Shown here in pieces: positions 4,373 to 59,891 of a stretch of DNA of 64,000 nt; the stretch's first letter is position 1, and every line of letters starts with the position of its first letter. The notes under the pieces are model-generated. The model saw nothing but the letters and a program-made list of their open reading frames with translations. It was not told the origin of the DNA and did no database searches. The translations under genes and the position numbers were made by a program. The stretch comes from Acrasis kona (taxonomy: Eukaryota > Heterolobosea > Eutetramitea > Acrasida > Acrasidae): positions 62,001 through 126,000 of the forward strand of contig JAOPGA020000288.1 of assembly GCA_026419775.2 (NCBI GenBank), given 5' to 3'.

Positions 4373-4994
4373 TTTATTTTTAGCTTCAAAGCTAAATTTA
4401 CTTTTTTGAATTTTCTACTTATTTTTTGTCGTTTTGAAATATCATTGATAGACAATTAATATTAACAAATATTAGAATTAAATGGTAGCAACTCCTTATT
4501 GCTGGTGAAGTTCAACACAACAATAAAAATTTGAAAATCTTTTATAGATTTAAATTTTAATTGCTCAAAGTCTTTTTCAAACTGAGCACAATCATAATGT
4601 GGCAGTTGTATGATCTAGTGAGAATTTAGTTACCTTTTAATACATACTATTTCATCATACGCAAGATTACATTAGATAATATCACATTGAATGGCTGTGA
4701 CTACAAAAGAGCTCCGAATGCTTTTTATAATAATATCCACATAGTTGATGAATCGATATTTACAAAATTGCACTAAGACTGATCGTTGACAACATCCACT
4801 GTGATATCCTTCGTGCTAATAAATCCCCGCACAGAAAGCATCCTCAATTACTAGTATTGGATAATGTCGTATTTTAAGGTTTAGGGGGGTTTATTTTCAG
4901 CTTCCAAGTATTATTCTATTTTAAGTATTAATCAAAATGTATAAATAGCCATTTAACAAAATAATCCGGAACAAGAAAAAAAACACAACAAGTG
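4373..4994. other. Intergenic region between divergent genes
   Basis: About 620 bp between the start codons of the F-box gene (minus) and the protease gene (plus). It is AT-rich, has no ORF worth calling, and must contain both promoters. It is unusually long for this gene-dense half of the window, where other divergent pairs are separated by 34-47 bp. Confidence 0.6.
4940..4947 (+). promoter_or_regulatory. TATA-like box of the serine protease gene
   Basis: TATAAATA lies 48-55 bp upstream of the ATG at 4995, followed by an A-rich leader. Position and sequence fit a core promoter with a short 5' leader. Not experimentally supported. Confidence 0.45.
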
Positions 4995-23137: not shown

Positions 23138-24233
23138 AATACCGAGTTTTACCAGAAAGAATGGATATATTATATTAACTTTTGGAAAATCGAAGTTGGC
23201 TTCCAAGATATGTTCGGTTCGATGAGACTTGAGAATAGTTTGTACATGAACAACGCTGGCTCGGTGTACCTGAATGGTGCTCATGCGGATATAAGACTTG
23301 TAGAATCTGTTTGGCATACTCATCTTAACACTGATATGTCTACAGAAGAAATTTGGAGCTTCATATAATTTCATCAAAAAAATTCTCGAAAGGAAGAATT
23401 CTGGAATCTTGTACAAGAAGCAAGGAAGACCGAAAAACAGTACACCAAAAACAAGTATGGGGTTGATGCATTACATTGAGCACCTTACTAGACTTTATCC
23501 CCATCAAGGTCATCAATGGATATCAGATCAAGTTTTTGAGAGATTAGAAATTAGACTAGATCTATCACAAGTGTGCCGCCTTCGTTACAAGCTTGGATTT
23601 AGAAGAAAACAAATGTCAATGATTGCCGCTCGCCGGAGACTTCCACGTGTAAAACTAGCTCGTCATGTATTTCGTCAACATATACCAGGTATAAGAGTAT
23701 CTGATGCTGTTTTTATTGATGAGTCTCACTTCGATTATTCCATCATGAATCCAAAGTATGGATATCATCATAAAACTGAGAAGGCAGAGATGATTCGAGG
23801 AGAAGTGAATCGATTGTCATTTAGTCTAATACTTGCTATGGGATACAATGGTTTAGTTCATGCTTATATCAAAGACACTTCTAAAGAAGGTGTAANTCAA
23901 CATGATTTCTTCAAGTTCATGGATGGATTGCATCCAAAGCTCTTGCCAACAGCTGTTGTAATATTAGATAATGCTAAGATATATACTGAACTAGTAGATA
24001 ATTGGTTCCGGGACAATGATGTAAATTGTTTCTTTTTGTCACTTTATAGCCCTGATTATAATCCTATAGAACTTGTGTTTGGATTGATAAAAGGATTAAT
24101 TAAAAAAGACAAGTATCGCAATTATAGACTTGAAAATGCAATACAGGATACATTGTCATATGTCACTGTTGATCATTGTCAGGCATTTATAAAGCACGCT
24201 GTAAGAGTATGGACAATAAATGAGCCATTGTAA
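23138..24233 (+). pseudogene. Tc1/mariner-IS630-type transposase, frameshifted
   Basis: The DDE part is open from 23409 to 24233. It has the first Asp in VFIDESHFD, the second in VVILDNAKIY and the Glu in YSPDYNPIEL, with about 33 residues between the second Asp and the Glu, as in IS630/Tc1 enzymes. The GRPKNS motif after the helix-turn-helix is also typical. The helix-turn-helix part lies in another frame (about 23138-23367; paired-domain-like GSVYLNGAHADIRLVESV) that ends in TAA, so a frameshift near 23,360 separates DNA-binding and catalytic halves. One ambiguous base (23896) falls in the ORF. No terminal inverted repeats were recognised. A decayed cut-and-paste element is the most likely reading. 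Confidence 0.7.
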
Positions 24234-39833: not shown

Positions 39834-41890
39834 ATGGCTGACGAACAACACGCCAACAAGAGGCGCCGCATTGACGTAGACTATAGACGTCTTGAAGAAG
39901 AAAGTGACGATGAAACCCAACAAATAGATCCTCTCACTCCAGAAAGAGAGCCTGAAGAGAATGATTTTTTGAATCAACTCGCAAATACCGCAGCCAGTCG
40001 CAACAAAGGCTGAAATACAAATAAAGGCGAGAAGAGAAGTTTTGTCTGGGACCATTTTACAGTCACAGATGTTTTGAAAGAGGGCACGAGAGAAGTAGCA
40101 GATCAATTAATTTCTTGTAAGCTTTGCAAAAAATGGAGTGTTCTTGAAAGCGTCAGGAAGAACACCACATCTAACATGAAGAGGCATTTAAAAAAGCACA
40201 ACATATTTGAAAAGGGACAAACAGCACCAGAACAGAGTTCATTAAGCAAAAGAGAACAATTTGAGGAGGATGTTGTTCAATTAACAGTAGAAGAGGATCT
40301 TCCATTTACATTTGTTGAGTGCCGAGCATTTCAACAAATATTTGAACACATTGGCTTTGATGAATCGAAAATGTCGGCCACTACAATGCGTAGAAGAATC
40401 GAGGACCAATTTAAAAAATCAAGGGATGAGCTGAAAACATTTTTGGAATCAACATGCGAGTCCATTGCAGTGTCGCTAGACGCTTGGACAAGTCCTAACA
40501 ATTACGCATTTTTTGGAATAATTGGCAGTTGGATTGGTGCTGACTTTAAATTTTATGAACGTGTATTAGATTTTACAGAGCTGAAAGGTCGCCATAGCGG
40601 AGCAAATATGTCAAATGCAGTGATTGAAACATTAACAGAACTCGGCCTGTTGTCAAAAATTTTAACCATCACTGCTGATAATGCGAGTAACATGGAGTCA
40701 CTGATCAAAACCTTGACTACAACATTACAGACAACACTTCGTAATAATGGCGGGTCAATATTCCAAGGTGATGATGGCTATATTAGATGCCTGGCGCACA
40801 TCATTAATCTGATTGCAAAAGATATAATGAAAGCGCTCAAGGCAGGAAAGAAAAAGGATTGTTATGAGATCCTTGACAAGCTTGAAGCAAATAAGCCTAT
40901 TGAAGTTCTCAGTGCCATCATGAAAGTACGTACTCTTGTTCTACATATTAAGGACAGTACTCAACGACGGGAACGTTGGCTTAGTCTAATAACAAATAAT
41001 CAGCAGAAGCATTTTGTTGATTATGATGTTNAGAATCGATGGAATTCAACTTACCATATGATTGATGATGCTTTACGTTTTCCTAATGAGCTTACTAGAT
41101 ATGCTCAAAATGAGGATCTCAACAATCTATTGTTAGATAATAATGATTGGACTCAGCTGCTACATGTGCGTAATGTCCTTGAAAAATTTGATAATTTCTA
41201 TCAACAACAAAACCACAAATAACCAACTCACTTGGTATTTATTATACACTGAGTGATATGCTAAATGACGTTGTTGAAAAGAGGGGCAAATTTAAAAGTA
41301 CCCCAAATAACCTTGTGGAGTCTGTCAGAGAATCTATAGAAAAGTATGATAAATACTATAAACTTATGGATAGCAGCCTTGTGTATTATGTGGCAGCAAC
41401 ATTGGACCCTAGAAGCAAGGCAGTATGGATGAAGTCACATTTGACAGATGAAGATCATGATTTCATTATTAAGCAAGTAATCGAGAAGATCAAGGTTGAT
41501 TTTGGCATTTATGATGAAGAACAAGAAAACATACCAACTCCTCCAAGTTCTGATTTTTCAGTTAATGCCATGATGCTATGTACTACTCAGAAAGATGCTG
41601 CTAGGCTGTCTGATGTTGAAAAGTATTATAACTCAGGAGTGACAAGCAGTAATGTAAAGGACTCTTTTCAGTGGGTTCTGGAGTGGTGGAAGGATAATCA
41701 AACATTGTTTCCCAATATGGCTAAGGTAGCAAGGGCATATTTAGCAATTCCAGCAGCATCTGTATCTGTTGAGCGATTGTTTAACTCGGGACATGATGTA
41801 ATTGATGTTAGACGTCACTCCATGATTTCAACTACGTTCCGATGGCTAATACTATTGAAGGATTATTACCAACATAAAAATAAAAATTAA
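39834..41890 (+). pseudogene. hAT transposase with BED zinc finger, one stop and one frameshift
   Basis: The frame starts at ATG 39834 (MADEQHANKRRRIDVDYRR). It meets TGA at 40011-40013 and continues in the same frame to 41222. A one-base shift near 41,210 leads into the frame ending at 41890. The BED finger is SFVWDHFT, then CKLCKK and TSNMKRHLKKHN. The catalytic core includes SVSLDAWTSPNNYAFFGI and ITADNASNM, and the C-terminal dimerisation region is intact (FPNMAKVARAYLAIPAASVS, then VERLFNSG). About 680 residues if the two breaks are ignored, a normal hAT length. An ambiguous base at 41031 lies in the frame. The element is young by its perfect ends but its transposase is inactive here. 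Confidence 0.88.
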
Positions 41891-43873: not shown

Positions 43874-45373
43874 TTATTTTTGGATTGACTTTAACTGGCT
43901 TCTGCGCCATGCAATCAAATTACCCACTACAAATTCACTCCAAAGAGTTCTTTTCTCATTTCCAGGCTCAAGAAGAGGGATTTGAACGTTTGGTCTCAAC
44001 AAAATATTAGTTATTTCCAACAAAACAAAATCATTAGGGATTGTTACTAAGTGCCAGAGGACTGCATCTGAAACATTACTCTCGCTAATTACATCATCTC
44101 CGTACATGATGCTAATAGTATCATCCAATTTGAGTATTGATTCACTGTTAATTTTTTTTTGTTCGCTTTTTCCTACATACCTAGCACCACTTCCTACCTT
44201 GTCCATCATCTTATAGAAATTCTTAGAGTTTCCGGACATATAGCCTTTGAGAAGAACAGCTTCACCGTAATCCTTTTCTACTTGACCCATGATTTGTTGA
44301 GCTACAAGATATGTTGCTTCAACCTTTAAAACGTCCCACACCTCATTTCCTGCTCTTCCTTCTCTAGATCCTTTGTTGTATTGAAGGCCTACTACATCCA
44401 TGAGCCTTCTTAGTAAGGTTTGATCTTTTATTTAGTTACAGATGTGATCAAAATCCTCCTTTGAAACAGTGATTGTTGTTTTAAGGTGTGTAAGCGAACC
44501 AATCTTGAACATGTATGATCTCTTGTTGTCTTTCCCTTTAGGTGCAATTTGTTTATAAGTCAAGTTTGCAACCTTATGAATTTGCTCAAAAGCGTTAAAT
44601 GCAGATACATAGTTGTTGTACACCTGTTTTTCAACTAGGATGTAGTCGGTTTTGCTTTTGTATTTGTCAAGTTCATCTTGGACTGTCTTGAGCTGGGCTC
44701 TAAGCTGAGACAATATGAACTGATGATTGGCTAAAACTGTTAAAGCCTGTTGATGCGAGTCAAGTGGGTTGTGTAGAATCAGTTGTGTATTTGGGTGGTA
44801 GGTGGTTACAGGTTGTACATTTGGGTGGTGATAAGTGGTTACAGGTTGTGTAGTTTGGTTGCTGGGACTTGTATCAATGGGAGGTGCGCTTTGAAGTGCA
44901 TGTGTGCCAAGTATCTGATTAGTGAATGAAAAACCCAGAGCATTCTGATCTTGTAGTGTGTCCAACATTAAAGCATTGAAATCATCTTGATTTATCAAAC
45001 CTTCATCCAATTTCTTAGAAGGTGCCTGAGGATGGTATGAATCTATTTTATTCAAAATCAATCTCAAGGCCACAGCAGCTCTATCTTCTTTTGGTGGCTC
45101 CTCAGATGCTTTCTTTTTTTGCGCATTGTAGTCGGCTTGATACTTTGATGCAGCATTGAAAAGGTAGTCCGCATACTTGATAAATGTTTTTGCTAATTCC
45201 TCCTTGGTTCCTGATACCTTTAAATTCTCCTTGCTTAATGCCTTCACTTCTTTCAACCATCTGATAAGCGTCTTCAGCTGGTCTACAGTGAGCTTGTTTA
45301 TTGTATTTTCCAAGCCTTCACTCTTGTTACTGATCATAGTGATAATGCTAAGGATTTTTGCATCCAAGTGCAT
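43874..45373 (-). CDS. SAP-domain protein of the large element
   Basis: Exons on the minus strand: from ATG 45373 to 44440, then 43874..44391. A 48-nt GTAACT...GTAG intron removes the stop otherwise met at 44432 and joins EDFDHI to LGLQYNKGS in frame. Residues near the start form a SAP-type helix-extended-loop-helix (KLTVDQLKTLIRWLKEV then SGTKEELAKTFIKYAD), a motif that binds AT-rich or scaffold DNA. The middle is Gln/Asn/Pro-rich, followed by a predicted coiled coil (LRAQLKTVQDELDKYKSK). The spliced C-terminus (GNEVWDVLKVEATYLVAQQ, WSEFVVGNLIAWRRS) is unrecognised. The upstream frame stays open to a TTG at 45418, so a further 5' exon is possible. An 891-bp part is duplicated in the LINE ORF1. 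Confidence 0.6.
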
Positions 45374-45380
45374 CTCTGAT
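44490..45380. repeat. 891-bp segment shared with LINE ORF1 (copy A)
   Basis: Aligns without gaps to 58993..59883. I count 24 differences by eye (about 2.7%). In 20 of them this copy has A or T where the LINE copy has G or C by transition, and about ten are at CpG in the LINE copy. Confidence 0.9.
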
Positions 45381-45510
45381 AGCCTCGCTTCCAACTGTGA
45401 AAAAGTACAGATGGACAAACCACTTTGTGCATGTTGAGTTGTTTAATGTCCATAAAAATGAAGCGGCAATCCTTGCTCCTCTCGTCGCTCAGAATAGCAA
45501 ATGGGCAAAG

Positions 45511-45916: not shown

Positions 45917-46465
45917 ATGATGAAACATTTTACTTATCTTGCTACAAACGTCAAAGAAACTGAAGATAACGCTATTGCGTTAATGGGAGAGGAAGGCAAT
46001 GAAGGAATATTGGTGAAAATGAGGAAAATCTTACAGATTGCAAATGCTTCCATGTTGGAAAAATGGAATGGATGGAAAGGTTCAAAAATGGGAGAATATG
46101 AGGAAGAAAATAAAGAGGAGTGGCTGAGTGAAATACAACAAATATATAACGATATTGTCCCAAACAAGGCGAATGTGGAAGCATCAGAAGAAGCGTCAGA
46201 AGAAGAGTCAGAAAAAGATGATGCGAGAGATACATTATATGACAATACAACCGAACTTATGAAATCAATCAAGAGGCCAGGTTCAAGAGCACAAAAATCT
46301 TGTTCAAAAAAGGAAGCGCCATTCAATGTCAACAGTTATTTGACAAAATTAGAAATAACTGCACCCCATACACATACCACGCCTCAATTCACAACACACA
46401 ACATCATGTACCAAATGTATGTAATTGTTAATATACAGGGACGTGCAGCTTATTTGGTCGGATAA
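45917..46465 (+). CDS. Unknown acidic protein, 3' end cut by the CAGGG-ended element
   Basis: 182 residues from ATG 45917: a helical N-terminus (LVKMRKILQIANASMLEKWN), an acidic block (EASEEASEEESEKDDARDT) and a basic block (SIKRPGSRAQKSCSKKEAPF). The last nine residues are encoded by the inverted repeat at 46436, so the original C-terminus was probably displaced by that insertion. No family recognised. An upstream ATG (45825) with an intron-like GTATGT...GCAG of 37 nt does not join in frame. Confidence 0.35.
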   Translation: MMKHFTYLATNVKETEDNAIALMGEEGNEGILVKMRKILQIANASMLEKWNGWKGSKMGEYEEENKEEWLSEIQQIYNDIVPNKANVEASEEASEEESEKDDARDTLYDNTTELMKSIKRPGSRAQKSCSKKEAPFNVNSYLTKLEITAPHTHTTPQFTTHNIMYQMYVIVNIQGRAAYLVG

Positions 46466-46616
46466 TTAAAATCTGAGACGAGCTAAGTGATGAATTAATT
46501 AACTATATTTATTAAAACTAAATTTATATTATTTAATATAGTAATTTTTGACTTCTAAAAATAATTGTGACTATTTATTTGCCGAGGTGCTATGTATTAA
46601 TAAAAACGACTGTACA

Positions 46617-49600
46617 ATGATGCTAGCACCATTCAATAACAATAATGCAAATAAGTTGTTCGTCCTATGTACATTTTGTAATCAACCACAGTCATATGCA
46701 AATGCTGCGAGGCATAAAAATACATGTAAATACAATCCAGCCAAAGTTAATGAGTTAGAAGTATGTGCTGGTCTGCCATGTGATGTATATAATATTCTTA
46801 TCAACCCAGCTGGTCACATTTTAGGAGGCACAACGACAATCACATCACAAATGGACTACAATCGGGAAATGATAGCCACCAAGTCTGAAGATCAATTATA
46901 TTCAGTATCATGCACCAGTATCAAGCAAAACAGATCTGATATCTGTCATTATTGCGCACAATTGAAACGAATCTTGACTCAGAAATTGAAAAGATTGCCA
47001 GATTCTAATAATCGTGAACAAATGTTAAAAATGAGAACTCCAAACGATACACCTCTTCTTGCAATGGCAAAGATCAATGCATTGACAAGTGCACTTACAG
47101 AAGAAAGAAAGAGAACAATACAGTACTCAAGTAATGTGAGCGAAGCAATTAATGAGGAGCGGAAAAGCTTGCAAGAATCATTTGCAATTTGTGTTCAACA
47201 AGGTCAATTGGATCGTAACTTCAAATACTACATGTTGAAGGACATGTTCCAAAATATGCAACGTTCTAACTATGGTGTGAGACACAATCCTATAATGTTA
47301 CGTTTCTGGCTAATTACTCGGTATTATGGTGGCTCTAAAGTTTTTAATATCCTTGGGGGTCAACAAAACAAAAAGGATGTCAAAAAGTCAGAACAAACAA
47401 ACAAGAACTCCAATTTTATAGTACCTTCAATTCGCACTTTGAAAAGTCATTCTCCACGAGGATGGTATGGATTCATTACCAAGGAACAAATAAATATAAT
47501 TCAAGATAGCATNGAAAAAAAAAGGTTATTAGATGACTTTATATCTCCATACTTTATTATTGCTTATGATGATATGGATGTGCGCCCTGGTTACGAAATA
47601 TGGAGGGACTTTATAGTTGGTAGTGAAGAGTTGATCACTTTTGAAGAGTTTGAAACTCTTAGTGAGGTTGATCTTGATAGAAGAATGGGAAACAAGATGT
47701 GTGTTTTCAAAGCAGTCAGCGTATGCGGCAAGGTAACAGTTCCAGTTGGGTTATGGGTCCATCATGATACTAGACAGAACGATAACGAAGATGATTCTTG
47801 GATTATTCAAAAGTTAAAGTTCATAGCTACAGAGTTAGAGAGTGATGGATTTCAAGTTATTGGTAGTAGTTCAGATGGAGATTTAGTCCATAATGAGAAT
47901 TTTGTAAAAGAAATGAAAAGATGGAACTTGGCACGAAAAAATAAAAATAAATGGCTTCATCTGTTTGATGCTGAGCATCTTGCCAAATCGATTAGAAATG
48001 CCTTAATTAGAAGGACTTTCTTTGATACTGTAAATAGTTGTGACAAAGAAAATGACATTGTAAAATTTNAAATGTCAGACCTTGTAGATTTGTTTAGCAG
48101 CAATGAATGCAATTTGTCTGAATATTTGACAACCAACGATCTGTCTCCAAGTGATATTATGCAATTTAAACCGTTAAAGAATCTTGTTGCTGATCAAGTT
48201 GTAAGTGCATTAGAGTCATCAAAGTCTCCTGTTTCAAAAGCTTTGTCTTTGTTCCTCAAAAATATTAGAAATATTTACAAAATTCCAAGAATAAGCAATG
48301 TAGAAATGCCGTTAAAAGATAAAGTTAAAGAATTGCAAAATACAATGGCTTACTTTCAATGTATTCAAGATGTAGATATTGAGGGTGTTGTTAAAAGAAG
48401 TTACAAATTTGACAAAAGAACTTTATTTAGAATTATCAGCTTCTGTTCAACTGTTAAAGAACTGATAGAATTTTTAAATAAACACCCTGACCCAAGAGTT
48501 GCAGAGAATGTACTTTTGTCAGCTTTATCAACATTATGTGTTGAGCACCAATATTGTGTTGTTCGATCTAAAGTGCCATATCCAACTGTGAGGGAGTTTA
48601 TTAACACATTTGCTTATGCATGGTGGGTGTTACAAAACATTCATTGTGATAAAAAAGAGAGAGTATTCAACATGCCGCCACCTGCTCCAACTAGGTATTA
48701 CAATACGCTTTGTGTTGTACTTCCATTGTCTGAACTTCCTACACCTTACAAGACACCAAAAAGAAGAGTGAACAGTCTCAAGCTCTCTAAAGCTAGTCTT
48801 GAAAAACTTAGTCAAAGGACAGCAGGCAGACATGATCCAACACCAAGAAATATCCATGCTCACCGATCCTGTGTCCTTTATCAGTGCCTTTATGACTCCT
48901 GTGGTTATAAAGCATACAAGTTGCTTGGTGCTCTTGTAACTCATCTAACAAAAGACCATGCAAAAGAAGTGAAAGCTAGCGGAAAATCTGCAAAGGAGCT
49001 TGGTAACGAGATACAAAGGTGTTCAATACTGAAACACATTCAAGCTCAATTGGCCCACCGCTCTCAGTCTGCGGATTTAGATGGAAAACAGAAGCTNGAT
49101 GTAATTTATCTTGCAGCTAAAAGCATTGTCAAGTCTGTTGTCCATGAAAAAGATTTACATCTGGAAGACAAGCCGATTGATAAAGAAGTGTTCTCTGCAA
49201 GTTTACAAGAGCCTGTATATGTTGACCATAGGATAAGTGCAGATCATATAAAGTTAGATGAATCGTGTTTATATAATGGTGAACGGTACCACATTGTAAT
49301 TGTTGATATTGAAACTACCGGATTTGCAAAAAATGCAGGCATTGTACAGATAGCAGTGAAGTCTTTGAATGATGATTGTATTGGAACAACTCTTGTCAAT
49401 CCTGCCCCTTATGTTGCACCAGTTATTATAAATGGAAGTAACGCTGCAATGTGGAGTTTAAAAGCTATAACCGATGCACATCAAATTACTCCCTCAATGG
49501 TAGAAAGAGCTTGTGATATTGAGGTTGGGATAGAAAGTTTATGTTACTACTTAACTGTGGACCAAACGGCTGTGCCAATTATTATCGGACACAATTGTAA

Positions 49601-51068
49601 ATTTGACAAAGCACGGTTAGATTACTGGGCAAAAAAAACAAACATTGAGGAGTGGAGTACTGATTGGCTGTGGTTAGACTCAATGAACCTGTTGGATGCA
49701 GTCACTATCAAAGGCAAGAAATCTAAAAAATTGAAAGATTTATTTGTATCGTGCTTTGGGGAGGAAGAGTACAAGAAATTGTCACATCATAGAGCAGAGT
49801 GGGATGTTCAAATGACATTTGATGTATTGCAACATAAACACAAAAATGTCAGAGAAGTGGTTATGGCAAAATTAAAAGAATTAGGAAACCTCCTTGAAGA
49901 AGATGGTGATGAGTTACAAGAGGATGAAATTGCTCCTGAACCTTTTGAAGATAATTCAGAGTCAATAAATGACATGTTTAATGAAGGCGCCAATGATGAT
50001 GACATTGCAGATGATGATGGAGATAGTGAAAATAAATGTAATGACAGCAATTATGGAAGTAATGGTGAGGATGACTGCACAATGATTAATGATTTGAACC
50101 TTACGTCATCTGCAAAACGAAGTAGGCCTGTGGATACAAGTAAAGACAAAAGACCAAAAATAGAAGATGCCGGTTATTGTGCATGTATCAGCAAATGTAA
50201 AACATACAAATGTGTCTGCAAGGCAGCAAAAAGGTTTTGTTCTGTCAATTGTCATAAACAACAAAAAAAGACACAGTGTGAGAACAATAGTGCTACATCA
50301 GAAGAACGTGTTAAGTCCTACCCTGATCACGTTGATCTTACTAAACCAGGATTTCAACTAAATGTCTCAACAATGTTATCTGGTCTCAATAAGATTTTTG
50401 AGAACGGAAACTATATTTTAAGAGAGTATCACAGTTCGGATAAGGGTGTGTATGATGAGAATGAGATTTATGAGGATATACATCATCTTTTAGAACACAA
50501 TGATTATTGTTATTATACATTTTTGATGAACAGACACTATACTTCACTCACGTGCATTAAGGAAAACAGCATCATTTACTGTGTGTATTTTGACTCGATT
50601 TCAGTTAATTATCAACTTGAGACAGCACTCCAAGAGATTTCGAATAATCATGACGACTTTAAACTTCAGCGCATGTTCAAAAAAGGATTCCAAACAGATG
50701 GGTGGAGTTGTGGTTATTGGGTGTTGGTAGTGGCGAAAGCTGTTTTTAAATATTTTAGCCAAAACGAAATGTTGAGACTCATCAAATTTTTTATATTTGA
50801 TATGAGCACTGAGCTAGCATTTCTTTTTGCAGACCAAACAGAGTTATACTTGAACACAATATACTTGTCTGACATTGAACCTCACGCATTTGATAGAATG
50901 CACTATGAAAAGAATTATGTTTCATATGAAACCTCAAATCTTCAAACAGGTCCGTTTGACAACGTATTAAAAGATAAAAGATTTTTAGACGAAGAGTGTA
51001 AAACAATCCAGTTCAGTGAAGAAATAAACTGTGATACTGCAAAAGAACAAAAAAATTCAAAACAATAA
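46617..51068 (+). CDS. Multidomain transposase-like protein: RNase H-fold core, DEDDh exonuclease, CXC, Ulp1-type protease
   Basis: 1,483 residues from ATG 46617 (the open frame continues upstream to 46548). An N-terminal zinc motif is CTFCNQPQSYANAARHKNTC. Residues about 310-460 look like a transposase core: IIAYDDMDVRPGYE, VIGSSSDGDLVHN and LFDAEHLAKSIRNALI (Asp451), recalling the DxxHLxKxxRN block of P-element and Kyakuja-Dileera-Zisupton enzymes. A C2H2-type finger follows (CLYDSCGYKAYKLLGALVTH). A DEDDh 3'-5' exonuclease begins IVDIETTGF (Asp897, Glu899), then GHNCKFDKARLDYW and HHRAEWDVQMT. A CXC Cys cluster (CKTYKCVCKAAKRFC) follows, then a C48/Ulp1-type protease with His1307, Asp1326, Gln1359 and Cys1365 (QTDGWSCGYW). 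All catalytic residues are present and no stop interrupts the frame. It precedes the dioxygenase gene by 132 bp. Confidence 0.75.
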   Translation: MMLAPFNNNNANKLFVLCTFCNQPQSYANAARHKNTCKYNPAKVNELEVCAGLPCDVYNILINPAGHILGGTTTITSQMDYNREMIATKSEDQLYSVSCTSIKQNRSDICHYCAQLKRILTQKLKRLPDSNNREQMLKMRTPNDTPLLAMAKINALTSALTEERKRTIQYSSNVSEAINEERKSLQESFAICVQQGQLDRNFKYYMLKDMFQNMQRSNYGVRHNPIMLRFWLITRYYGGSKVFNILGGQQNKKDVKKSEQTNKNSNFIVPSIRTLKSHSPRGWYGFITKEQINIIQDSXEKKRLLDDFISPYFIIAYDDMDVRPGYEIWRDFIVGSEELITFEEFETLSEVDLDRRMGNKMCVFKAVSVCGKVTVPVGLWVHHDTRQNDNEDDSWIIQKLKFIATELESDGFQVIGSSSDGDLVHNENFVKEMKRWNLARKNKNKWLHLFDAEHLAKSIRNALIRRTFFDTVNSCDKENDIVKFXMSDLVDLFSSNECNLSEYLTTNDLSPSDIMQFKPLKNLVADQVVSALESSKSPVSKALSLFLKNIRNIYKIPRISNVEMPLKDKVKELQNTMAYFQCIQDVDIEGVVKRSYKFDKRTLFRIISFCSTVKELIEFLNKHPDPRVAENVLLSALSTLCVEHQYCVVRSKVPYPTVREFINTFAYAWWVLQNIHCDKKERVFNMPPPAPTRYYNTLCVVLPLSELPTPYKTPKRRVNSLKLSKASLEKLSQRTAGRHDPTPRNIHAHRSCVLYQCLYDSCGYKAYKLLGALVTHLTKDHAKEVKASGKSAKELGNEIQRCSILKHIQAQLAHRSQSADLDGKQKXDVIYLAAKSIVKSVVHEKDLHLEDKPIDKEVFSASLQEPVYVDHRISADHIKLDESCLYNGERYHIVIVDIETTGFAKNAGIVQIAVKSLNDDCIGTTLVNPAPYVAPVIINGSNAAMWSLKAITDAHQITPSMVERACDIEVGIESLCYYLTVDQTAVPIIIGHNCKFDKARLDYWAKKTNIEEWSTDWLWLDSMNLLDAVTIKGKKSKKLKDLFVSCFGEEEYKKLSHHRAEWDVQMTFDVLQHKHKNVREVVMAKLKELGNLLEEDGDELQEDEIAPEPFEDNSESINDMFNEGANDDDIADDDGDSENKCNDSNYGSNGEDDCTMINDLNLTSSAKRSRPVDTSKDKRPKIEDAGYCACISKCKTYKCVCKAAKRFCSVNCHKQQKKTQCENNSATSEERVKSYPDHVDLTKPGFQLNVSTMLSGLNKIFENGNYILREYHSSDKGVYDENEIYEDIHHLLEHNDYCYYTFLMNRHYTSLTCIKENSIIYCVYFDSISVNYQLETALQEISNNHDDFKLQRMFKKGFQTDGWSCGYWVLVVAKAVFKYFSQNEMLRLIKFFIFDMSTELAFLFADQTELYLNTIYLSDIEPHAFDRMHYEKNYVSYETSNLQTGPFDNVLKDKRFLDEECKTIQFSEEINCDTAKEQKNSKQ

Positions 51069-51200
51069 ATTTTTACCACAGATGTTACTTATTCTTACTA
51101 TTTCATGCATGAATATATATAGAAAGTATGTGTGGCACGCTTCTTTCATAGGTTTTAAATGGTTTAAAATTTCTATCTTCTTTCTTTGTTTATTGTAAAA

Positions 51201-52535
51201 ATGGGAGCAAGCAAAAGCGAACAAGCAAAGGCAAAGAAGAGGAGGATAATCAACAAACGTTTCAGGGAAAACAACCCTGAATACCATAAGGTTTACTATC
51301 GTGAAAAAAAAGCTTCTAATGCAACAAATTTGAAAAACAACAGCGCCATTCTTCAAAGAATTGATAGTGATATCTCCGAAAATGCGGTACAAAAGATTCT
51401 AGTACCCTATCCTGTGGATGCCCTACNTTCACAATTATTTAAAGTACCAGAGGAACAAGAGTGGATAACTGTAGCTGATGAGAGACATGTTGTGGCTACA
51501 ACAAGCGGTGAATCTGACACAAAATTAATCGATTACCGCCCAAACTACGTCCAAAAGGAGGTTGGCGATAACTTCCTTCAAATTTGGAAAGAAATTGGAG
51601 ACAGTGATTTATTTACTGAGAAGGATTTTGATGCAACAAGAGGCAACATTTGTGTACACGTTGGAATTGCTAAGGAATTCTATACAGGCAGATGGTGTGT
51701 GTCAGGGCACTACAAGAAATTAATGAGCTCTTCATTTGCTGATAAAGTTCTTTTATCACTGCATCAGATTTGTAATGCTGTCGTAGAACATTTACAAAAG
51801 CATGACACTGTTACGCTCACTACAATTCAACAAGGATTGTCTTTATTGCCACCAAAAGTTCGTGAAGAGTATCCATTTGCGTTACCAAACATGTTCATAA
51901 ATATTCGCAACTCTACATGTAAGTTACACACTGACAATAATGACGCGGCTGATGTTGGTGGGATATTGTTTGTTTTTAAGAGCAGTGATTGTAGAGGTTG
52001 TTACTTGTCTTTCCCAACCTTGAAGATTCATTACGATTTGGGCCATTGCGATATGGTAAGGGCACGTTTCAAAACATTACCGCACATGAACACTGACTTT
52101 ATAAGCGGCAATAGAGTATCAATTGTTTGCCCTTTACATGAGCGAATTATAAATCTCTGTTATAAAAAAGCGGTTGAAAATGGAGAAGTTACACAAGAGA
52201 ACTATGGGAAGATATACTTGATTGGCAGATTTGATGAGAAAGAAAATCTAATGAAACTCATTGGCCGTAAAAATATACTTGCATTCAACGGAACTAAAAG
52301 TAATGTATCAAAGGCACGTTCTCGTGGAGCTTTTTCAATTGCGGTGTGCACTGAGCCAACTTGGGAAGCAGCAAAGAAAGCTTCATTCTCAAAAAAATAT
52401 AGTGTTTTCAAAGCATTAGTTGACAAAAACATCTCGCTTGTCAACATTAGGTGGTTAGAGAATGTGTTGGGTGAAAGGGATATTCCTGATACTAAGGAAT
52501 TCGAATACAATTTGAATGACGTTCCAAAAGATTGA
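51201..52535 (+). CDS. TET/JBP-like Fe(II)/2-oxoglutarate dioxygenase with BRCT-like C-terminus
   Basis: 444 residues from ATG 51201. The basic N-terminus (KSEQAKAKKRRIINKRFREN) resembles a DNA-binding or nuclear-localisation segment. The double-stranded beta-helix is read from NMFINIRNSTCKLHTDNNDA: the His243-x-Asp245 metal pair, then LSFPTLKIHYDLGHCDMVR, His295 in KTLPHMN, and Arg305 in GNRVSIVC, which would bind the 2-oxoglutarate carboxylate. Order and spacing (50 residues from HxD to His, 10 from His to Arg) fit TET/JBP and fungal transposon-linked dioxygenases. Such enzymes oxidise 5-methylcytosine or thymine in DNA. The last 70 residues (KYSVFKALVDKNISLVNIRW, then LENVLGERDI) resemble a BRCT end. 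The usual GGxL turn is RGCYL. Substrate is inferred, not shown; one ambiguous base at 51427. Confidence 0.65.
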   Translation: MGASKSEQAKAKKRRIINKRFRENNPEYHKVYYREKKASNATNLKNNSAILQRIDSDISENAVQKILVPYPVDALXSQLFKVPEEQEWITVADERHVVATTSGESDTKLIDYRPNYVQKEVGDNFLQIWKEIGDSDLFTEKDFDATRGNICVHVGIAKEFYTGRWCVSGHYKKLMSSSFADKVLLSLHQICNAVVEHLQKHDTVTLTTIQQGLSLLPPKVREEYPFALPNMFINIRNSTCKLHTDNNDAADVGGILFVFKSSDCRGCYLSFPTLKIHYDLGHCDMVRARFKTLPHMNTDFISGNRVSIVCPLHERIINLCYKKAVENGEVTQENYGKIYLIGRFDEKENLMKLIGRKNILAFNGTKSNVSKARSRGAFSIAVCTEPTWEAAKKASFSKKYSVFKALVDKNISLVNIRWLENVLGERDIPDTKEFEYNLNDVPKD

Positions 52536-53261
52536 TACAAAAGTAACAAAATAAAAGTTTGTTCAATGTTTGTGCTTTAATGTATACAATTCAAAGTTCA
52601 TCTATAACTCGTATGTGTATGATTTATCTGCTTTGAGCAGTACTCTTGTTTCCAATAATTATAGAGCTGTTAGTTTGTCTGTGTCCATGAGGTCGATACT
52701 TCTCACCAGATTGTCTCCATTTGGTTTTGTAATCGTTTTATCCGCGTGAAATGTTTACTCTTTTAAGAATATTTTCTGTTAGGATATTTTATTCTAGTTT
52801 CACCGCAAACATCCACAGTCGCACGTCCCTGGTGATAAGGATGATGACACTGTTCAGAATTCTCCATAATAAATCTGATTAAATACAATCGCCTGTCAAT
52901 TTACAATAAATTGCCCGCTTATTCTCTTGTTTGTCATTAAATGGTGTAACATTTAAATTTTAACATCTCTTTGATATGTTTTAACAAAAAAATAAGGAAA
53001 GGTAATACCTGATTCAATTAAACTGTATACTAACGTAATATAGATCAGTATACTTTCGTTTGCTCCTCAATGTATGCTTTATCACACTTACTTCAAACTA
53101 AAACTAATAGTCGCAACATTATTGTTGAGAATGTAAGAGATGTCCTGACAAAGAAGTTTGTAAGAAGAGCATACAATATCTCACCCTATGTCAAGGTTTA
53201 TTTGTTCAATTTTATCCTCACCCCAATTTATAAATATAACTTTTGAAACAAACCTAACAGT
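52536..53261. other. Right flank of the CAGGG-ended unit and a promoter region
   Basis: No ORF. It contains the right inverted repeat (52821-52831) and, upstream of the next gene, a TATA-like TTATAAATATAAC near 53,227. Confidence 0.45.
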
Positions 53262-54175: not shown

Positions 54176-57100
54176 TTATTGAAAGAGGGGGTCAAGATCT
54201 GACAAACAGTCTTGTACAGGTTGAATGTCAGATGATGGGTAAGTGATGTTTCTTGTACGTGCAAAAATGTGCTTGCCAAGGAGGGAAAATATATTACGTA
54301 TGATTGAGGTAGTTTCCGCTACTGCCTTCTCTCGGTCATTACGATATATCAAGTTAAATGCACTGCGAAGATGATTATAGCAGTTTTGAGAGATAAAACC
54401 GCGAAGATCTATGATGAGATGGTTAGTGTGGATATTAGGGTGAGAATCGATATTATTCCAGGTTAGAGTGATGGAGTGATCATTTAGGAGGTGATCATTT
54501 AGAACTACATTGATGTCATGTTTCAGCTCCGCAATTGCAATGTCAACAAACTGGCAGTCCAGAAGAAGGTGTCTAAGAGACGCATCCTTCCCGCAGAGTT
54601 TACATTTCAAGAGGGAGCCATTTTTAAGATCTCGATTGTAGAACTGGTCACACCTGGCTCGAAGGAGGGAGAGGGCAGGTCGATTAGAGCATGTGATACT
54701 CCAGATCATGTTAGAAATACCATGGGGAGATTCAGAATGAGTGGGGAGGTCGTAAGTAGTCTTGATGGAAGATTCTGGGTTAATATGTGTCAGGTAGTAG
54801 TCTCTAACAATACGGGGGATATTGGGATTTATGTTGTGGGTTCCGTGAATTAGGACAAAACGGGGGGAGTGAGCCATTATGATGGTGCGAGTGAGGATAA
54901 TAGGAGGATCGCAGGAACGACCAGCGTTAGCGTTAGCATCAGCTAATTCGTTATCTCTATCCCCTCTATGTCCTTTGATCCATCTGAGTGATGCTTCGAT
55001 ACCTTTAGTTCTTGCCAGGTAATGGAATGCGGTTGAGAGGTGTCCGGTTCGATCGGAGGATTGCTTCATCCGGACCGCATTTTTGTTATCAATAAACACA
55101 CATACTTTAGAATTGATTGGAAGTGCTTTGATAACAATGATAGCTCCAATGATTTCAGCGTGTGTGGAGCTATCGCATGGGGGGATTTGTAGTGATCTGG
55201 TATGGATGATGTGATTGGATTGTGCGTCAGTGACAACTATCCCCACCCCGGCGGGTTCCGTGTTGTTTATAAACGAGGCGTCAACTGTTACTTTGAGGAG
55301 AGGGATATCATGTACAGGGAGCGGATCAATCGTCCCACTATCCTCAATGGTGTTACCTGTTGGCAGAGACAAGAGGAAATTGGTATTGTGTCTGTATCTA
55401 GCCAGTCTTAAGTTCATAGCGGACATGATTGCCAGAGATGATACGAGCGGGTCTCGAGATGTCAGGGAGGGAGTATGATTAGCCGCTTGTTTAAGTAGGT
55501 TGACAGTGGCAGCTGCGGCTGGCTCAAATGTGCAGTTGAGGATACGAAGGAGGTTACGAATACGGGAGATTGTGGCAATCACCCAGGCAGGATCCATCCC
55601 CAGACCACCAAGTGAACGGGGGTTGTGAATAAGGTAGGTAGGACATGTAGGAGGGAAGTGAAGGAGTCTTCTGACATGATTGTTGAAACACGAGTCCATA
55701 CTTGCTGTTGATGGTATTGAGATGTTCCCCAAGCTGGTAAAGTAACGCGTGACACCCCCTTTGATGGTAGAGAGCATAGATATTGTTCGACAAGGGTGTA
55801 GGAGACGGGATGTGAGGGGTGGTAGGATTGTGCGAAAGCGGGCTTTGACTCGATCTCTTGTGTGTGTCACTGTGGGTCTGAAGGTAAACATGACACCGAG
55901 ATACCTCCAGGGGAGACTGATATCCTTGTGTATAGTGAAGTCTGAGTAGGGATTGTCGCCCATAATCACCTTTCCACCTTTCTGAACATAAGAGATAAGG
56001 ATACTTTTTGAACCATTAATAGAGAGGCAGAGGGTTTTCGAGTGGGAGGAGAGTATATTGAGGGCAGAGGTGCGGCTAATGAGGTTGTTGGAAGTGAGTG
56101 CGAGGTCATCAGCGTAGCCCATGATTGGTAGGGATGGAGTATGGGGAATTTTATATCCAAGGAGGTTTCCACCAAGACTCTTTTTGTCCTCTTCCATGAG
56201 CGCTCTGAAAATAATTTCAATGTAGAGATTAAAGATGGTGGGGCTGAGAGGATCGCCTTGGGGAACACCTCTAGTGACATGGATCTCCTCAGTGAGACCA
56301 TAGGCTGTGCGTACTTTGATTGTGTGGTCTTTGTAAATTGATTGAATTAGGGAGGTAACTTGGGATGGGAGACCAAGAAGAGGTAGGAGTTCAAACAGCC
56401 GTTCATGAACCACACTCCCATACGCGTCGGTAAAGTCGATGAGTGAGAGGAATAGGTCTTGTTTTCGTTGTTTAGCGTCGGTGAGTAGGGCCAGCATCGT
56501 GGTAGTGAGGTCGGAGCATGATCCGTTTGGGATAAAACCTCGTTGGAAACTAGACAGAGTGGATGATTTCATCAGACCATCCATCAGTCTGCGATTTATT
56601 ATGGCCAATAGTGCTCTGTAGATTACGGGTAAAACGGCGATGGGTCGAAATTTCGAGAGGAGGAGTAGGTCAGAGGGGTCAGAGGTTTTGGGGATGAGTG
56701 ATACGTATGCTTCTTTCATGGATGCGGGTATTTCCTCTTCTCCTCTCAGGATTCTGGTGGCGACGATGGGTAGATGGGCTTGAATGTCAGAGGGTAGAGA
56801 GTTCCATATTTTACCATGAATGCCATCAATGCTGGGGGTGGCGGAGGTGGATTCAATGGCCTGCGTCCATTCTTCGATAGTTACTGCTTCTGAGAAGGCG
56901 GAGGTGGTATCATCAGCCCAGGGGGTGGAGGTTCGGCGAAGGAGGTCAAGTGATTCCTGGGGAATGGGAGGGAGGTGATCTGGTGGGTTGTATCGTTTGG
57001 AGAAGGAGCTCTGGATATATTCGTGGATACGTAGACCATCTCTACATACTTCTCCGTCTATTAGGAATTCTGATGGTAGGAATGTAGGAGCCCAACCCTT

Positions 57101-58351
57101 GAGGGATCTCCATGCCAGTTTGGAGGAATTGTTGACCATTATTTCCATCTCTTCCATATGGGTGGTGTACAGTGTTCTAAGAAGGTCATCTTTTTGTTTG
57201 AGGAGAATTCTTTCAACCGAACGGGCGCGAGAACGAATATCCATCCAAGATTTGTGTTCGTCATATAAGAAAGGGATTCCCAGAATCGAACATTCTGTTT
57301 CCAAGGTATTCATCAGTCTGGAGGAGTAGTTTTTGTCTAGAAACTGCATAATCTTCGCTTTTCGTTTCACTGTATGAATGTGATTGATTCGCTTATACAA
57401 TTGTTCAACTTCAGAAGAGTGAAAGGCTGGGCGAGGCTTGGAAGAATGTGCTGGTTTCTTGACAAAGTCGGAGACCGCTTGTGAGTATACTTGGTGGATG
57501 TCTTTGAGGGTGGTGTCTTGGGATATGCGTAAATGAGAAGTCGCTTCGGCATGAACCAAATGTATGTTTGGTTCTGTATAAGCGAACCGGGTGAGTTTAT
57601 CACCAATGGATTTGTCTAGGACTGTATATGAGAGGAGTACCGGTCGGTGGTCAGAGTCGTGGAATGTAATAACTTCGCTTGAGTCCAGTACTCTGGAAGT
57701 GACTGCCGTTACGTTAGAGATACCATACAAAATGTTATCGATGCAGTTTTCGGAGAATGTGGGCGAAGTTGTTGCTGAAGAGAGGTGAAATTTATCCATC
57801 AGGTTGAGCAGACGACGGCCGCATTGTGAAGATTCGTCAATTTCAACGTTGAAATCACCGGCGATAATTATGTCGTGTTTTTTCAATCGTGCACCTGTGA
57901 TCCATTCTTCAATTTCTTGTTCGATTTCCAACGATTCTTGATTTGATATGGTGTTGGCGTAATTCGTGGGGAGGTAGGCGCAAACAATGGTGGTAGGGTG
58001 GAGTTTGAGGTTTACCGAAATGCATACCGCTCGACCTTCGTACGTAGAGTTCTTCTGGGAGACGGTAATTACATTGTTTCGGAATCTCTTTTTCATGATG
58101 ATGAGCACTCCATGTTTCTTTTTGTTTGTAAGGCCATGTCCTATACATATGTAGCCGAGTTTTTCGAAACTGTGTTGGAGGGTGGGGAGTTCCGAATGGA
58201 GGTGGTGGGATTCTTGGATGCAGAGAATGTCAACGTCATATCGGGTGAGGAAGTTGACAATGTTGTGGGTGCGGTTTGTCAACGGTGGTTTGGTGGAAAT
58301 AAGTTTACCGTTGACATTCCAGGTGGCGATGGTGATGGAATCTTTAACCAT
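54176..58351 (-). CDS. LINE ORF2: APE endonuclease, reverse transcriptase, RNase H, CCHC zinc motif
   Basis: 1,391 residues, no stops. The apurinic-type endonuclease is complete: ATWNVNGK, DILCIQESH, IIIAGDFNVEID, and the closing FHDSDHRPVLL. The reverse transcriptase has RPIAVLPVIYRALLAIINRR, SLIDFTDAYGSVVHERL, TRGVPQGDPLSPTIFNLYIE and the active-site GYADDLALT. The RNase H follows, with VTVDASFINNTEPAGVGIVV, THAEIIGAIIVIKAL, VFIDNKNAVRM and HRGDRDNELADANA. The terminal zinc motif is CKLCGKDASLRHLLLDC. APE plus RT plus RNase H places it among I-, R1- or Tad-like LINEs. All catalytic carboxylates are present, so it could be mobile. Translation probably begins by re-initiation at the ORF1/ORF2 overlap. 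Confidence 0.95.
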   Translation of the reverse strand: MVKDSITIATWNVNGKLISTKPPLTNRTHNIVNFLTRYDVDILCIQESHHLHSELPTLQHSFEKLGYICIGHGLTNKKKHGVLIIMKKRFRNNVITVSQKNSTYEGRAVCISVNLKLHPTTIVCAYLPTNYANTISNQESLEIEQEIEEWITGARLKKHDIIIAGDFNVEIDESSQCGRRLLNLMDKFHLSSATTSPTFSENCIDNILYGISNVTAVTSRVLDSSEVITFHDSDHRPVLLSYTVLDKSIGDKLTRFAYTEPNIHLVHAEATSHLRISQDTTLKDIHQVYSQAVSDFVKKPAHSSKPRPAFHSSEVEQLYKRINHIHTVKRKAKIMQFLDKNYSSRLMNTLETECSILGIPFLYDEHKSWMDIRSRARSVERILLKQKDDLLRTLYTTHMEEMEIMVNNSSKLAWRSLKGWAPTFLPSEFLIDGEVCRDGLRIHEYIQSSFSKRYNPPDHLPPIPQESLDLLRRTSTPWADDTTSAFSEAVTIEEWTQAIESTSATPSIDGIHGKIWNSLPSDIQAHLPIVATRILRGEEEIPASMKEAYVSLIPKTSDPSDLLLLSKFRPIAVLPVIYRALLAIINRRLMDGLMKSSTLSSFQRGFIPNGSCSDLTTTMLALLTDAKQRKQDLFLSLIDFTDAYGSVVHERLFELLPLLGLPSQVTSLIQSIYKDHTIKVRTAYGLTEEIHVTRGVPQGDPLSPTIFNLYIEIIFRALMEEDKKSLGGNLLGYKIPHTPSLPIMGYADDLALTSNNLISRTSALNILSSHSKTLCLSINGSKSILISYVQKGGKVIMGDNPYSDFTIHKDISLPWRYLGVMFTFRPTVTHTRDRVKARFRTILPPLTSRLLHPCRTISMLSTIKGGVTRYFTSLGNISIPSTASMDSCFNNHVRRLLHFPPTCPTYLIHNPRSLGGLGMDPAWVIATISRIRNLLRILNCTFEPAAAATVNLLKQAANHTPSLTSRDPLVSSLAIMSAMNLRLARYRHNTNFLLSLPTGNTIEDSGTIDPLPVHDIPLLKVTVDASFINNTEPAGVGIVVTDAQSNHIIHTRSLQIPPCDSSTHAEIIGAIIVIKALPINSKVCVFIDNKNAVRMKQSSDRTGHLSTAFHYLARTKGIEASLRWIKGHRGDRDNELADANANAGRSCDPPIILTRTIIMAHSPRFVLIHGTHNINPNIPRIVRDYYLTHINPESSIKTTYDLPTHSESPHGISNMIWSITCSNRPALSLLRARCDQFYNRDLKNGSLLKCKLCGKDASLRHLLLDCQFVDIAIAELKHDINVVLNDHLLNDHSITLTWNNIDSHPNIHTNHLIIDLRGFISQNCYNHLRSAFNLIYRNDREKAVAETTSIIRNIFSLLGKHIFARTRNITYPSSDIQPVQDCLSDLDPLFQ

Positions 58352-59891
58352 TCTTAATGTGGGTGGGAGTCATGTTATTTGATTGAAGCGCTGCAAATAG
58401 TCCCCTCATGCACGTTGAAATATCGGACATGTCTTGTTTGGTGTTTGACATTGTTCCGACCATCATGGAAATTGATGTTTCCATCGAGAGGATCCTATTT
58501 TGGTAGGCTTCAATTTGATCTTCCAAAAATTGAATTCTCTCATGGAGGGATTCTTTTTCGGAGCGATCGATTGTTGGTATCTCGTGCTGGGTTTGTGTGA
58601 AATTTACATCGAAAGTATCTTCCGTGTTGTTAATTTCGTGGACTGATGTCTCAACGAGAACCCTTTTCGCTTTCTTGCCACGTCTCTTTCGGTATCTCCT
58701 CTTTTTTGTTTTCAACGTGGGTGGAGGTGTGCGGAGATGTGGTGGTGTTATGGCTTCAACCCAAGAGATAGTAGGGGATGCCGGTTTAGATGTGTTTGGG
58801 TAATTAATTACCACAGGTTCATTGGAGGTTTTCGGTGGGGTTGAGGTTGGTGGTTTCTTATACCTGGTAAGATAGTGGATCGGTACCCAGGTATAAGTCT
58901 TCTGTGAGAACTTATGCCTCTTGTTGTGGTAACGTCTCTTACTTCGCGCCGTCAACCAAAGGTCCTCCTGATTTGGTTTTGTAAACATTGGCGTAAGCGA
59001 ACCAATCTCGAACATGTATGATCTCTTGTTGTCTTTCCCTTTAGGTGCAATTTGTTTATAGGTCGAGTTTGCAACCTTATGAATTTGCTCAAAAGCGTTA
59101 AATGCAGATACGTAGTTGTCGTACACCTGTTTTTCAACTAGGATGTAGTCGGTTTTGCTTTTGTATTTGTCAAGTTCATCTTGGACTGTCTTGAGCTGGG
59201 CTCCAAGCTGAGACAACATGAACTGATGATTGGCTAAATCTGTTAAAGCCTGTTGATGCGAGTCAAGTGGGTTGTGTGGAATCAGTTGTGTATTTGGGTG
59301 GTAGGTGGTTACAGGTTGTGCATTTGGGTGGTGATAGGTGGTTACAGGTTGTGTAGTTTGGTTGCTGGGACTTGTATCAATGGGAGGTGTGCTTTGAAGT
59401 GCATGTGTGCCAAGTATCTGATTAGTGAATGAAAAACCCAGAGCATTCTGATCTTGTAGTGTGTCCGACATTAAAGCATCGAAATCATCTTGATTTATCA
59501 AACCCTCATCCAATTTCTTAGAAGGTGCCTGAGGATGGTATGAATCTATTTTATTCAAAATCAATCTCGAGGCCACAGCAGCTCTATCTTCTTTTGGTGG
59601 CTCCTCAGATGCTTTCTTTTTTTGCGCATTGTAGTCGGCTTGATACTTTGACGCAGCATCGGAAAGGTAGTCCGCATACTTGACAACTGTTTTTGCTAAT
59701 TCCTCCTTGGTTCCTGATACCTTTAGATTCTCCTTGCTTAATGCCTTCACTTCTTTCAACCATCTGATAAGCGTCTTCAGCTGGTCTACAGTGAGCTTGT
59801 TTATTGTATTTTCCAAGCCTTCACTCTTGTTACTGATCATAGTGATAACGTTAAGGATTTTTGCATCCAAGTGCATCTCTGATTTCGGCAT
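58344..59891 (-). CDS. LINE ORF1 with captured SAP-domain front half
   Basis: 515 residues from ATG 59891. After three unique residues (MPK) the next about 295 residues are the SAP gene of the same element (copy B of the 891-bp repeat). They contain the SAP motif (KLTVDQLKTLIRWLKEV), the Gln/Pro-rich middle and the coiled coil. From residue about 300 it is LINE-specific: basic (RYRKRRGKKAKRVLV), Pro/Thr-rich, and ending in a coiled coil (HERIQFLEDQIEAYQNRILS) typical of ORF1 RNA-binding trimers. Its stop overlaps the ORF2 start (ATGGTTAA). The SAP segment may give the ribonucleoprotein DNA or chromatin affinity. Confidence 0.8.
   Translation of the reverse strand: MPKSEMHLDAKILNVITMISNKSEGLENTINKLTVDQLKTLIRWLKEVKALSKENLKVSGTKEELAKTVVKYADYLSDAASKYQADYNAQKKKASEEPPKEDRAAVASRLILNKIDSYHPQAPSKKLDEGLINQDDFDALMSDTLQDQNALGFSFTNQILGTHALQSTPPIDTSPSNQTTQPVTTYHHPNAQPVTTYHPNTQLIPHNPLDSHQQALTDLANHQFMLSQLGAQLKTVQDELDKYKSKTDYILVEKQVYDNYVSAFNAFEQIHKVANSTYKQIAPKGKDNKRSYMFEIGSLTPMFTKPNQEDLWLTARSKRRYHNKRHKFSQKTYTWVPIHYLTRYKKPPTSTPPKTSNEPVVINYPNTSKPASPTISWVEAITPPHLRTPPPTLKTKKRRYRKRRGKKAKRVLVETSVHEINNTEDTFDVNFTQTQHEIPTIDRSEKESLHERIQFLEDQIEAYQNRILSMETSISMMVGTMSNTKQDMSDISTCMRGLFAALQSNNMTPTHIKNG
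58993..59883. repeat. 891-bp segment shared with SAP gene (copy B, in LINE ORF1)
   Basis: Gap-free match to 44490..45380. It begins at the TCAGAGATG around the SAP gene's start codon and ends abruptly at GTAAGCGAACC, where LINE-specific sequence starts. Confidence 0.9.

Follow-up and report, generated by a model that had tools for sequence, protein, structure and literature searches.

The question raised by positions 46436..52831 of a 64,000-nucleotide stretch of the Acrasis kona genome (contig JAOPGA020000288.1) is whether two adjacent plus-strand genes, encoding a likely transposase and an Fe(II)/2-oxoglutarate (2OG) dioxygenase, form a single mobile element, and whether the dioxygenase belongs with the TET/JBP enzymes. 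The window denotes this whole stretch, G000:C149:62001-126000; other contigs of genome G000 are given as C-numbers, and the genome searched comprised 37.35 Mb in 1021 contigs. We consider the locus to be, with good probability, a two-gene heterolobosean transposon in which a multidomain likely transposase is accompanied by a TET/JBP-family dioxygenase with a BRCT-like tail, which would oxidize methylated bases and thereby lift host silencing. The transposase family is repeatedly paired, in the same place and orientation, with either a divergent BRCT-type dioxygenase or a TET-type gene.

The whole element (46436..52831) is delimited by exact 11-bp terminal inverted repeats (TIRs), CAGGGACGTGC on the plus strand at 46436..46446 and the same sequence on the minus strand at 52821..52831. 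These enclose two open frames, 46548..51068 and 51201..52535, confirming an earlier note on this DNA that had placed two plus-strand genes between inverted repeats. The TIR exceeds chance, because a genome-wide count found 11 occurrences of the 11-mer compared with 4 for the reversed letter order, and because 10 of the 11 sites are ends of this element family as judged from the sequence that follows them; the exception lies on C481. A genome search with both end regions of the element identified non-autonomous copies that carry the same end between 8-bp duplications. Of the short relatives that were fetched, four retain two recognisable ends, and the target duplication was exact in each of them: C250 (AACATTGA), C379 (GACATTTA), C652 (TTGATTAT), and C37 (AAGATTCT). 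C863, in which the left end is gone, and the unfetched right-end matches on C178, C968, and C172 lie outside this count.

Three blocks of the element, positions 1-130, 4631-4755, and 6211-6396, recur collinearly in the 752-bp C250 copy. The middle block is the intergenic spacer, measured from the last codon of gene 1 (window positions 51066..51190, plus strand), which is 82% identical to positions 396-520 of the copy. As left end, spacer, and right end follow one another in order within a duplication-flanked copy, both genes lie in one element. Two of the short copies, C250 and C379, sit at different sites and share 99.7% identity, which suggests recent movement. A second, nearly identical copy of the two-gene element is present on C314, with 99% and 97% protein identity, one stop per gene, and a right end that falls past the contig; C919 holds the right half of the element, with stops in its dioxygenase gene. 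The earlier note had looked to other genomic copies for the ends and the target duplication, and these copies supplied the ends, the placement of both genes in one element, and the 8-bp duplications of the short relatives. Four ambiguous bases inside the element (47513, 48069, 49097, and 51427) may reflect collapsed copies. Separately, G000:C815:8051-9221 and G000:C51:2628-3831 each hold a piece of the dioxygenase followed by the same short-element left end with the same 14-base flank, and represent a segmental or assembly duplicate.

Gene 1 (46548..51068, plus strand) is a 1506-aa open frame from a TTG; the ATG at 46617 was used here, giving a protein of 1483 aa from which all residues are numbered. 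Position, size, conservation, and the mobile ends indicate that its product is likely a transposase. Homologues covering most of the protein length occur elsewhere in the genome at 34-71% identity. No outside homologue was found in 5.8 billion proteins, from which the best 7990 candidates by shared words were scored. Near the N-terminus, the sequence reads as a zinc-finger-like CxxC...HxxxxC motif (46668..46727, plus strand) with no family match. The putative catalytic core (47499..48821, plus strand) contains YDDMD, SSSDGDL, DAEHLAKSIRN, and REF motifs that are conserved in alignments and from which candidate catalytic acids were assigned; we take these motifs to resemble those of the P-element/THAP9 transposases. 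The core had no PDB match, and scanning six cores gave no credible Pfam match. Scattered Pfam matches below cut-off, each in one of six sequences (the best to DAAF9, expect value (E) 6.9e-5, in the window protein only), were taken as chance. The KDZ model PF18758 matched neither the window protein, the six aligned proteins, the six cores, nor the genome, the last in a search run without a positive control.

The C-terminal part of gene 1 contains the additional domains, also on the plus strand. A DEDDh exonuclease domain (RNase_T, 49296..49826) was recognised in all six aligned sequences at E values up to 1, with a best value of 2e-9 and a value of 0.004, below cut-off, for the window protein. 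The best PDB match of gene 1 is a PolC-type exonuclease chain (E 2.2e-5). The catalytic residues D897, E899, D997, H1058, and D1063 are invariant in 6/6 sequences, window included. A cysteine cluster follows (50178..50255), in which C1188, C1190, C1194, C1199, C1201, C1208, C1212, and H1213 are invariant in the alignment. Last is a Ulp1/C48-type protease domain (50421..50726), whose H1307, D1326, Q1359, and C1365 are likewise invariant in all six sequences including that of the window. Similarity to Ulp1 is weak, the PDB search giving the ULP protease 7fiu at E 0.018, and no Pfam match was obtained for the protease domain. The invariant catalytic residues thus uphold the proposal of the earlier note that the transposase contains both a DEDDh exonuclease and a Ulp1-type protease.

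Gene 2 (51201..52535, plus strand) encodes a 444-aa protein, likely a TET/JBP-type Fe(II)/2OG dioxygenase. Its dioxygenase core spans residues 185-320 (51753..52160, plus strand), and the complete Fe(II)/2OG signature previously proposed was found where expected, with H243 at 51927, D245 at 51933, H295 at 52083, and R305 at 52113. These residues, the iron triad and the 2OG-binding arginine, are invariant in a 10-sequence family alignment that includes the window protein. Counting open frames only, all four are retained in 18 of the 19 frames that cover them, representing 18 loci with the window locus counted twice. Matches to gene 2 form 62 clusters in the genome, many of them fragments. In single-sequence and profile searches of the 5.8 billion proteins, the sole outside homologue was AKO1_004471 of A. 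kona, and C15, C366, and C461 encode fragments that match it at 97-98% identity along 161-275 aa, so that the genome belongs to A. kona or a close relative. The C-terminal region (52206..52475, plus strand) is BRCT-like: BRCT_2 was matched below cut-off in the A. kona homologue P0001 (residues 377-474, E 7.6e-5, 23.4 bits versus a cut-off of 27.3) and in no other of the ten members, while the family profile matched Mdb1 (E 0.017) and Rhp9 (E 1.1) in the PDB. Neither the window protein nor the family profile gave a direct match to CcTet or the Naegleria Tet-like dioxygenase in the PDB.

The relationship to TET/JBP emerges through paralogous elements in which TET-type genes occupy the same place, behind the transposase and in its orientation (C361, C539, C677, a second cluster on C919, and C558). 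The C558 gene scores above the Tet_JBP cut-off (42.1 bits versus 34.9). The C677 and C919 genes match Tet_JBP below cut-off (E 3.1e-5 and 1.6e-4), with WelO5 also matched and ranked behind. The C361 and C539 frames, each with one interrupting stop, align with the other TET-type genes, C361 being 79% identical to C677 and 53% identical to C539. A TET-type profile was built from five sequences, C361, C539, C677, C558, and C474, the last with no transposase found near it. In the PDB this profile matched CcTet (E 5.7e-8 and 6e-8) and, at E 4e-5, the Tet-like dioxygenase 5cg8/5cg9, with weak matches to PiuC (E 0.7-0.8) behind them. No phage relatives were found for one TET-type cargo gene.

When the window family was aligned with the TET-type profile in hhalign, a score of 57.1 was obtained (probability 92, E 6.7e-7), and across the 170 aligned columns the HxD, H, and R residues coincide. 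Against single Tet_JBP proteins the family scored 39.9 for C558 (P 9.9e-5) and 43.3 for C474 (P 1.1e-5). The two non-TET 2OG controls, E. coli AlkB and the PKHD enzyme YbiX, scored 16.0 each (WelO5 was not among the controls), a reversed profile scored 16.2, and 41 other open reading frames of the window scored 27.4 or less. Column shuffling gave scores of 28.7 or less in 146 of 150 cases. The earlier note had named an unrelated 2OG family, for example the prolyl hydroxylases, as the contrary case; AlkB and YbiX remain at background, and kinship with prolyl hydroxylases or AlkB finds no support. In addition, the A. kona BRCT-type protein resembles, at its N-terminus, the frames that precede two of the TET-type frames: identity is 48% over 67 aa for the one at C361, which is in the same reading frame with one stop between, and 41% over 41 aa for the one at C539. 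By these profile comparisons the window dioxygenase is closer to TET/JBP than to YbiX and AlkB, and gene 2 probably encodes a TET/JBP relative that has diverged far, in line with the TET/JBP-like character first ascribed to it.

The pairing of the two genes was evaluated across the genome. Among the matches listed, a same-strand dioxygenase lies within 3 kb downstream in 11 of 23 transposase clusters, six times of the BRCT type and five times of the TET type; in a twelfth cluster (C147) the dioxygenase is in the opposite orientation. As a control, clusters of the neighbouring long interspersed nuclear element (LINE) showed the same arrangement in 0 of 32 cases among the matches listed, and an arrangement in any orientation in 2 of 32, one of which is in this window. 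The searches scored the best 31 of 62 candidates for the transposase, 32 of 63 for the C558-type transposase, and 33 of 454 for the LINE. Matches were merged into clusters before counting, using 40 of 40 for the transposase, 14 of 40 for the C558-type transposase (mostly those adding places), 38 of 38 for the LINE, 96 of 100 for the dioxygenase, and 56 of 73 for Tet_JBP (the 4 and 17 dropped had E above 1e-3), together with all 52 from a further search.

Eight further places hold pieces of the C558-type transposase only, and in seven of them the match spans just 42-61 residues at the frame start. A TET gene lies downstream on the same strand in five of the eight, four times within 0.7 kb. These places look like internally deleted elements that have retained the TET gene. 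On C97, C256, C352, C151, and C976, short N-terminal remnants of the C558-type transposase precede Tet_JBP genes in the same orientation; these are possible transposase-less TET elements. Tet_JBP matches in the genome number at least 73 when E values up to 10 are admitted, and 19 of them exceed the cut-off. This total is larger than the 23 transposase clusters found; the remaining Tet_JBP genes may be carried by other transposon types.

Both genes are under purifying selection. The ratio of nonsynonymous to synonymous substitution rates (dN/dS) was 0.14 for the transposase (window versus C361) and 0.17 for the dioxygenase (window versus C257); three more distant dioxygenase pairs with high dS gave 0.18-0.29, and six other pairs were saturated. 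In the proposed mechanism, the gene 1 protein would cut and paste the element ends, while its exonuclease and Ulp1-type protease might serve transposition or the de-SUMOylation of the complex or of chromatin. The dioxygenase would oxidize 5-methylcytosine (5mC) or another methylated base, perhaps guided to chromatin or DNA breaks by its BRCT-like tail, and this oxidation would allow the element to be expressed and to escape methylation-based silencing. The same role has been proposed by Kojima for fungal TET elements, where it is stated to be without experimental validation (PMC12730594). C5 DNA methylase matches above cut-off are present on six contigs of the genome searched, two of them near-duplicates; repeats make up 16.8% of the published A. 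kona assembly of 44.02 Mbp (PMC11589745). Another heterolobosean, Naegleria gruberi, possesses both DNMT1 and Tet-like enzymes, and its repeats, DNA transposons among them, are enriched in 5mC (PMC12344493).

Several observations weigh against this explanation. The window dioxygenase alone matches no Pfam family, and a direct PDB search with it gave nothing useful. Tet_JBP was matched by two of the ten family members, both below the curated cut-off (C235, E 0.0065; C656, E 0.019). The profile search through which the earlier note had sought to place the protein thus gave a divided answer, in that the window protein itself was not placed, while the two matching members match no other 2OG family. 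Among the five linked TET-type genes, C558 alone passes the Tet_JBP cut-off, and the C361 and C539 frames on their own match only the 2OG halogenase model WelO5, weakly (E 0.0095 and 0.027). In hhalign, C539 alone scores 28.5, barely over background, and 4 of the 150 column shuffles were spuriously high, scoring 131-137 over 4-19 columns where the model ends. AlphaFold2 models of the transposase core and of the dioxygenase, the latter from two sequences, reached a mean predicted local distance difference test score (pLDDT) of 36 and 37.3, too low for fold comparison. Twelve of the 23 transposase clusters have no same-strand downstream partner. Partnerless clusters include fragments lacking the C-terminus (such as C534, C578, C69, and C704), and C118 lies near a contig start; C118, C196, and C231 do extend near the protein C-terminus. 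The window copy itself, unlike the short relatives, has no target-site duplication, its flanks being TTAATATA on the left and GTGATAAG on the right, a state that may have arisen by recombination among copies or through an assembly join. Finally, no 5-hydroxymethylcytosine (5hmC) is reported as detected in N. gruberi, whose Tet-like enzyme has thymine as a further substrate (PMC12344493).

One alternative is a different substrate. Gene 2 would then encode a TET/JBP relative acting on thymine (as JBP does), N6-methyladenine (6mA), or RNA rather than 5mC, and would help the element by another route, an explanation that deserves some weight even though we judge it unlikely. JBP hydroxylates thymine, 6mA is an additional substrate of CcTET (PMC12730594), N. 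gruberi has Tet-like enzymes yet no detectable 5hmC (PMC12344493), and the gene 2 family has diverged too far for its substrate residues to be deduced from those of known enzymes. The several C5 DNA methylase matches in this genome, however, make 5mC a likely substrate in the cell. We give a smaller chance to a dioxygenase that functions in transposition or repair and not in silencing, its BRCT-like tail directing it to transposase-made breaks where it would alter chromatin or the transposase complex. The best PDB matches of the tail, the DNA damage response protein Mdb1 (E 0.017) and the DNA repair protein Rhp9 (1.1), are consistent with such a function, as is a partner protein with exonuclease and Ulp1-type domains. 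No BRCT match was obtained, however, in the scanned TET-type frames of the paralogous elements (C558, C361, C539, C677, and C919), and since TET-type cargo without a BRCT match occupies the same place, the oxygenase is the common denominator.

More doubtful still is membership of the protein in some unrelated 2OG family, such as the prolyl-hydroxylase, AlkB-like, or halogenase-like enzymes, with a resemblance to TET/JBP through the common fold only. The missing Pfam match of the window protein, the low-confidence structure model, the weak WelO5 matches of four TET-type cargo genes, and the weak PiuC matches of their profile all point in this direction. It is opposed by the match of the family profile to the TET-type cargo and not to YbiX or AlkB, the two non-TET controls, by the two family members that match Tet_JBP and no other 2OG family, and by the N-terminal region common to the A. 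kona BRCT-type protein and the TET-type cargo genes. The genes might also be adjacent by chance, either as a host gene family beside a transposon or as two nested elements. In favour of this, a target duplication is missing at the window copy, whose two TIRs could stem from different insertions. We assign next to no probability to this arrangement, given a duplication-flanked C250 copy that keeps the intergenic spacer between both ends, same-strand downstream pairing in 11/23 transposase clusters compared with 0/32 control clusters among the matches listed, and the near-identical second copy on C314; the C250 copy and the pairing together lead us to reject it.

The element is best compared with the TET-carrying DNA transposons of fungi. 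Kojima's survey described 11 fungal transposon lineages with TET genes, and the elements named there include Kyakuja, Zisupton, Dileera, hAT7, IS3EU, Harbinger/PHISTA, EnSpm, ESTA, Plavaka, and Helitron (PMC12730594). As in those fungal elements, a TET/JBP-type gene lies inside a complete DNA transposon beside the transposase, with several such elements per genome, and fungal Zisupton and Dileera likewise generate 8-bp target duplications (PMC12730594). The present element differs in its host, a discoban protist, in a transposase that matches no known family and contains DEDDh exonuclease and Ulp1-type domains, and in a highly divergent window dioxygenase with a BRCT-like tail. A word search of the main text of PMC12730594 found none of the terms 'exonuclease', 'Ulp1', 'BRCT', 'protist', or 'Heterolobosea'. 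The Kyakuja-Dileera-Zisupton (KDZ) group shares a large transposase, and some of its members a TET cargo; in contrast, PF18758 matches neither the gene 1 protein nor, in the search lacking a positive control, the genome. KDZ proteins also carry cysteine clusters. CcTet (7vpn, 8jkk) and Naegleria NgTET1 (5cg8/5cg9) share the Fe(II)/2OG residue pattern and are matched by the TET-type profile of this genome, whereas the window protein and its family profile give no direct match to them and the window protein has the BRCT-like tail. The Agaricus PE-type TET/JBP-like proteins are similarly transposon-borne and so divergent as to demand structure-based comparison (PMC12730594), although they are fungal and are set beside the window protein by description, not by sequence.

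Among the matches listed, no TET-carrying transposon outside fungi was found in the open-licence literature searched. Two algal genome papers that mention both TET/JBP and Zisupton were considered and set aside, the mentions coming from a reference title and, in one paper, from a sentence listing Zisupton and Kyakuja elements. With TET-carrying transposons known from fungi, the pairing in a discoban protist with a divergent dioxygenase constitutes a new variant. The occurrence of the same pairing in such a host, with an unassigned transposase lineage, would mean that transposons took up TET-type genes far beyond fungi, and this uptake was likely independent. We advance a broader generalisation tentatively, at somewhat less than even confidence. 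TET-type dioxygenases may be standard equipment of an undescribed heterolobosean transposon superfamily, in which two or more different TET-family genes have occupied a single fixed position within one transposase lineage and internally deleted elements dropped the transposase and kept the TET gene, so that most TET-like genes in these genomes would be transposon weapons against the host methylome and not host regulators. It has been asked why Naegleria has Tet-like enzymes but no detectable 5hmC (PMC12344493). Should many of the TET genes in such amoebae be part of transposons, the place to look for their activity would be on transposons, in cells where these are moving. As a compact test system, the element also offers a single mobile unit that may edit its own silencing mark.

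The surrounding window contains further mobile sequences. A LINE-type retrotransposon with endonuclease, reverse transcriptase, and RNase H, together with an ORF1-like frame, lies on the minus strand at 54176-59891, and a truncated copy of the ORF1-like frame is found across the element from it at 44432-45418. Frames at 23409-24233, 33005-34669, 40074-41890, and 60461-62445 have motifs that we take to be those of Tc1/mariner, cysteine-rich piggyBac-like, hAT-like, and CACTA/EnSpm-like transposases, respectively. All nine single N bases of the window (23896 to 51427) sit in its mobile-element-rich part, as if near-identical copies had been merged during assembly.

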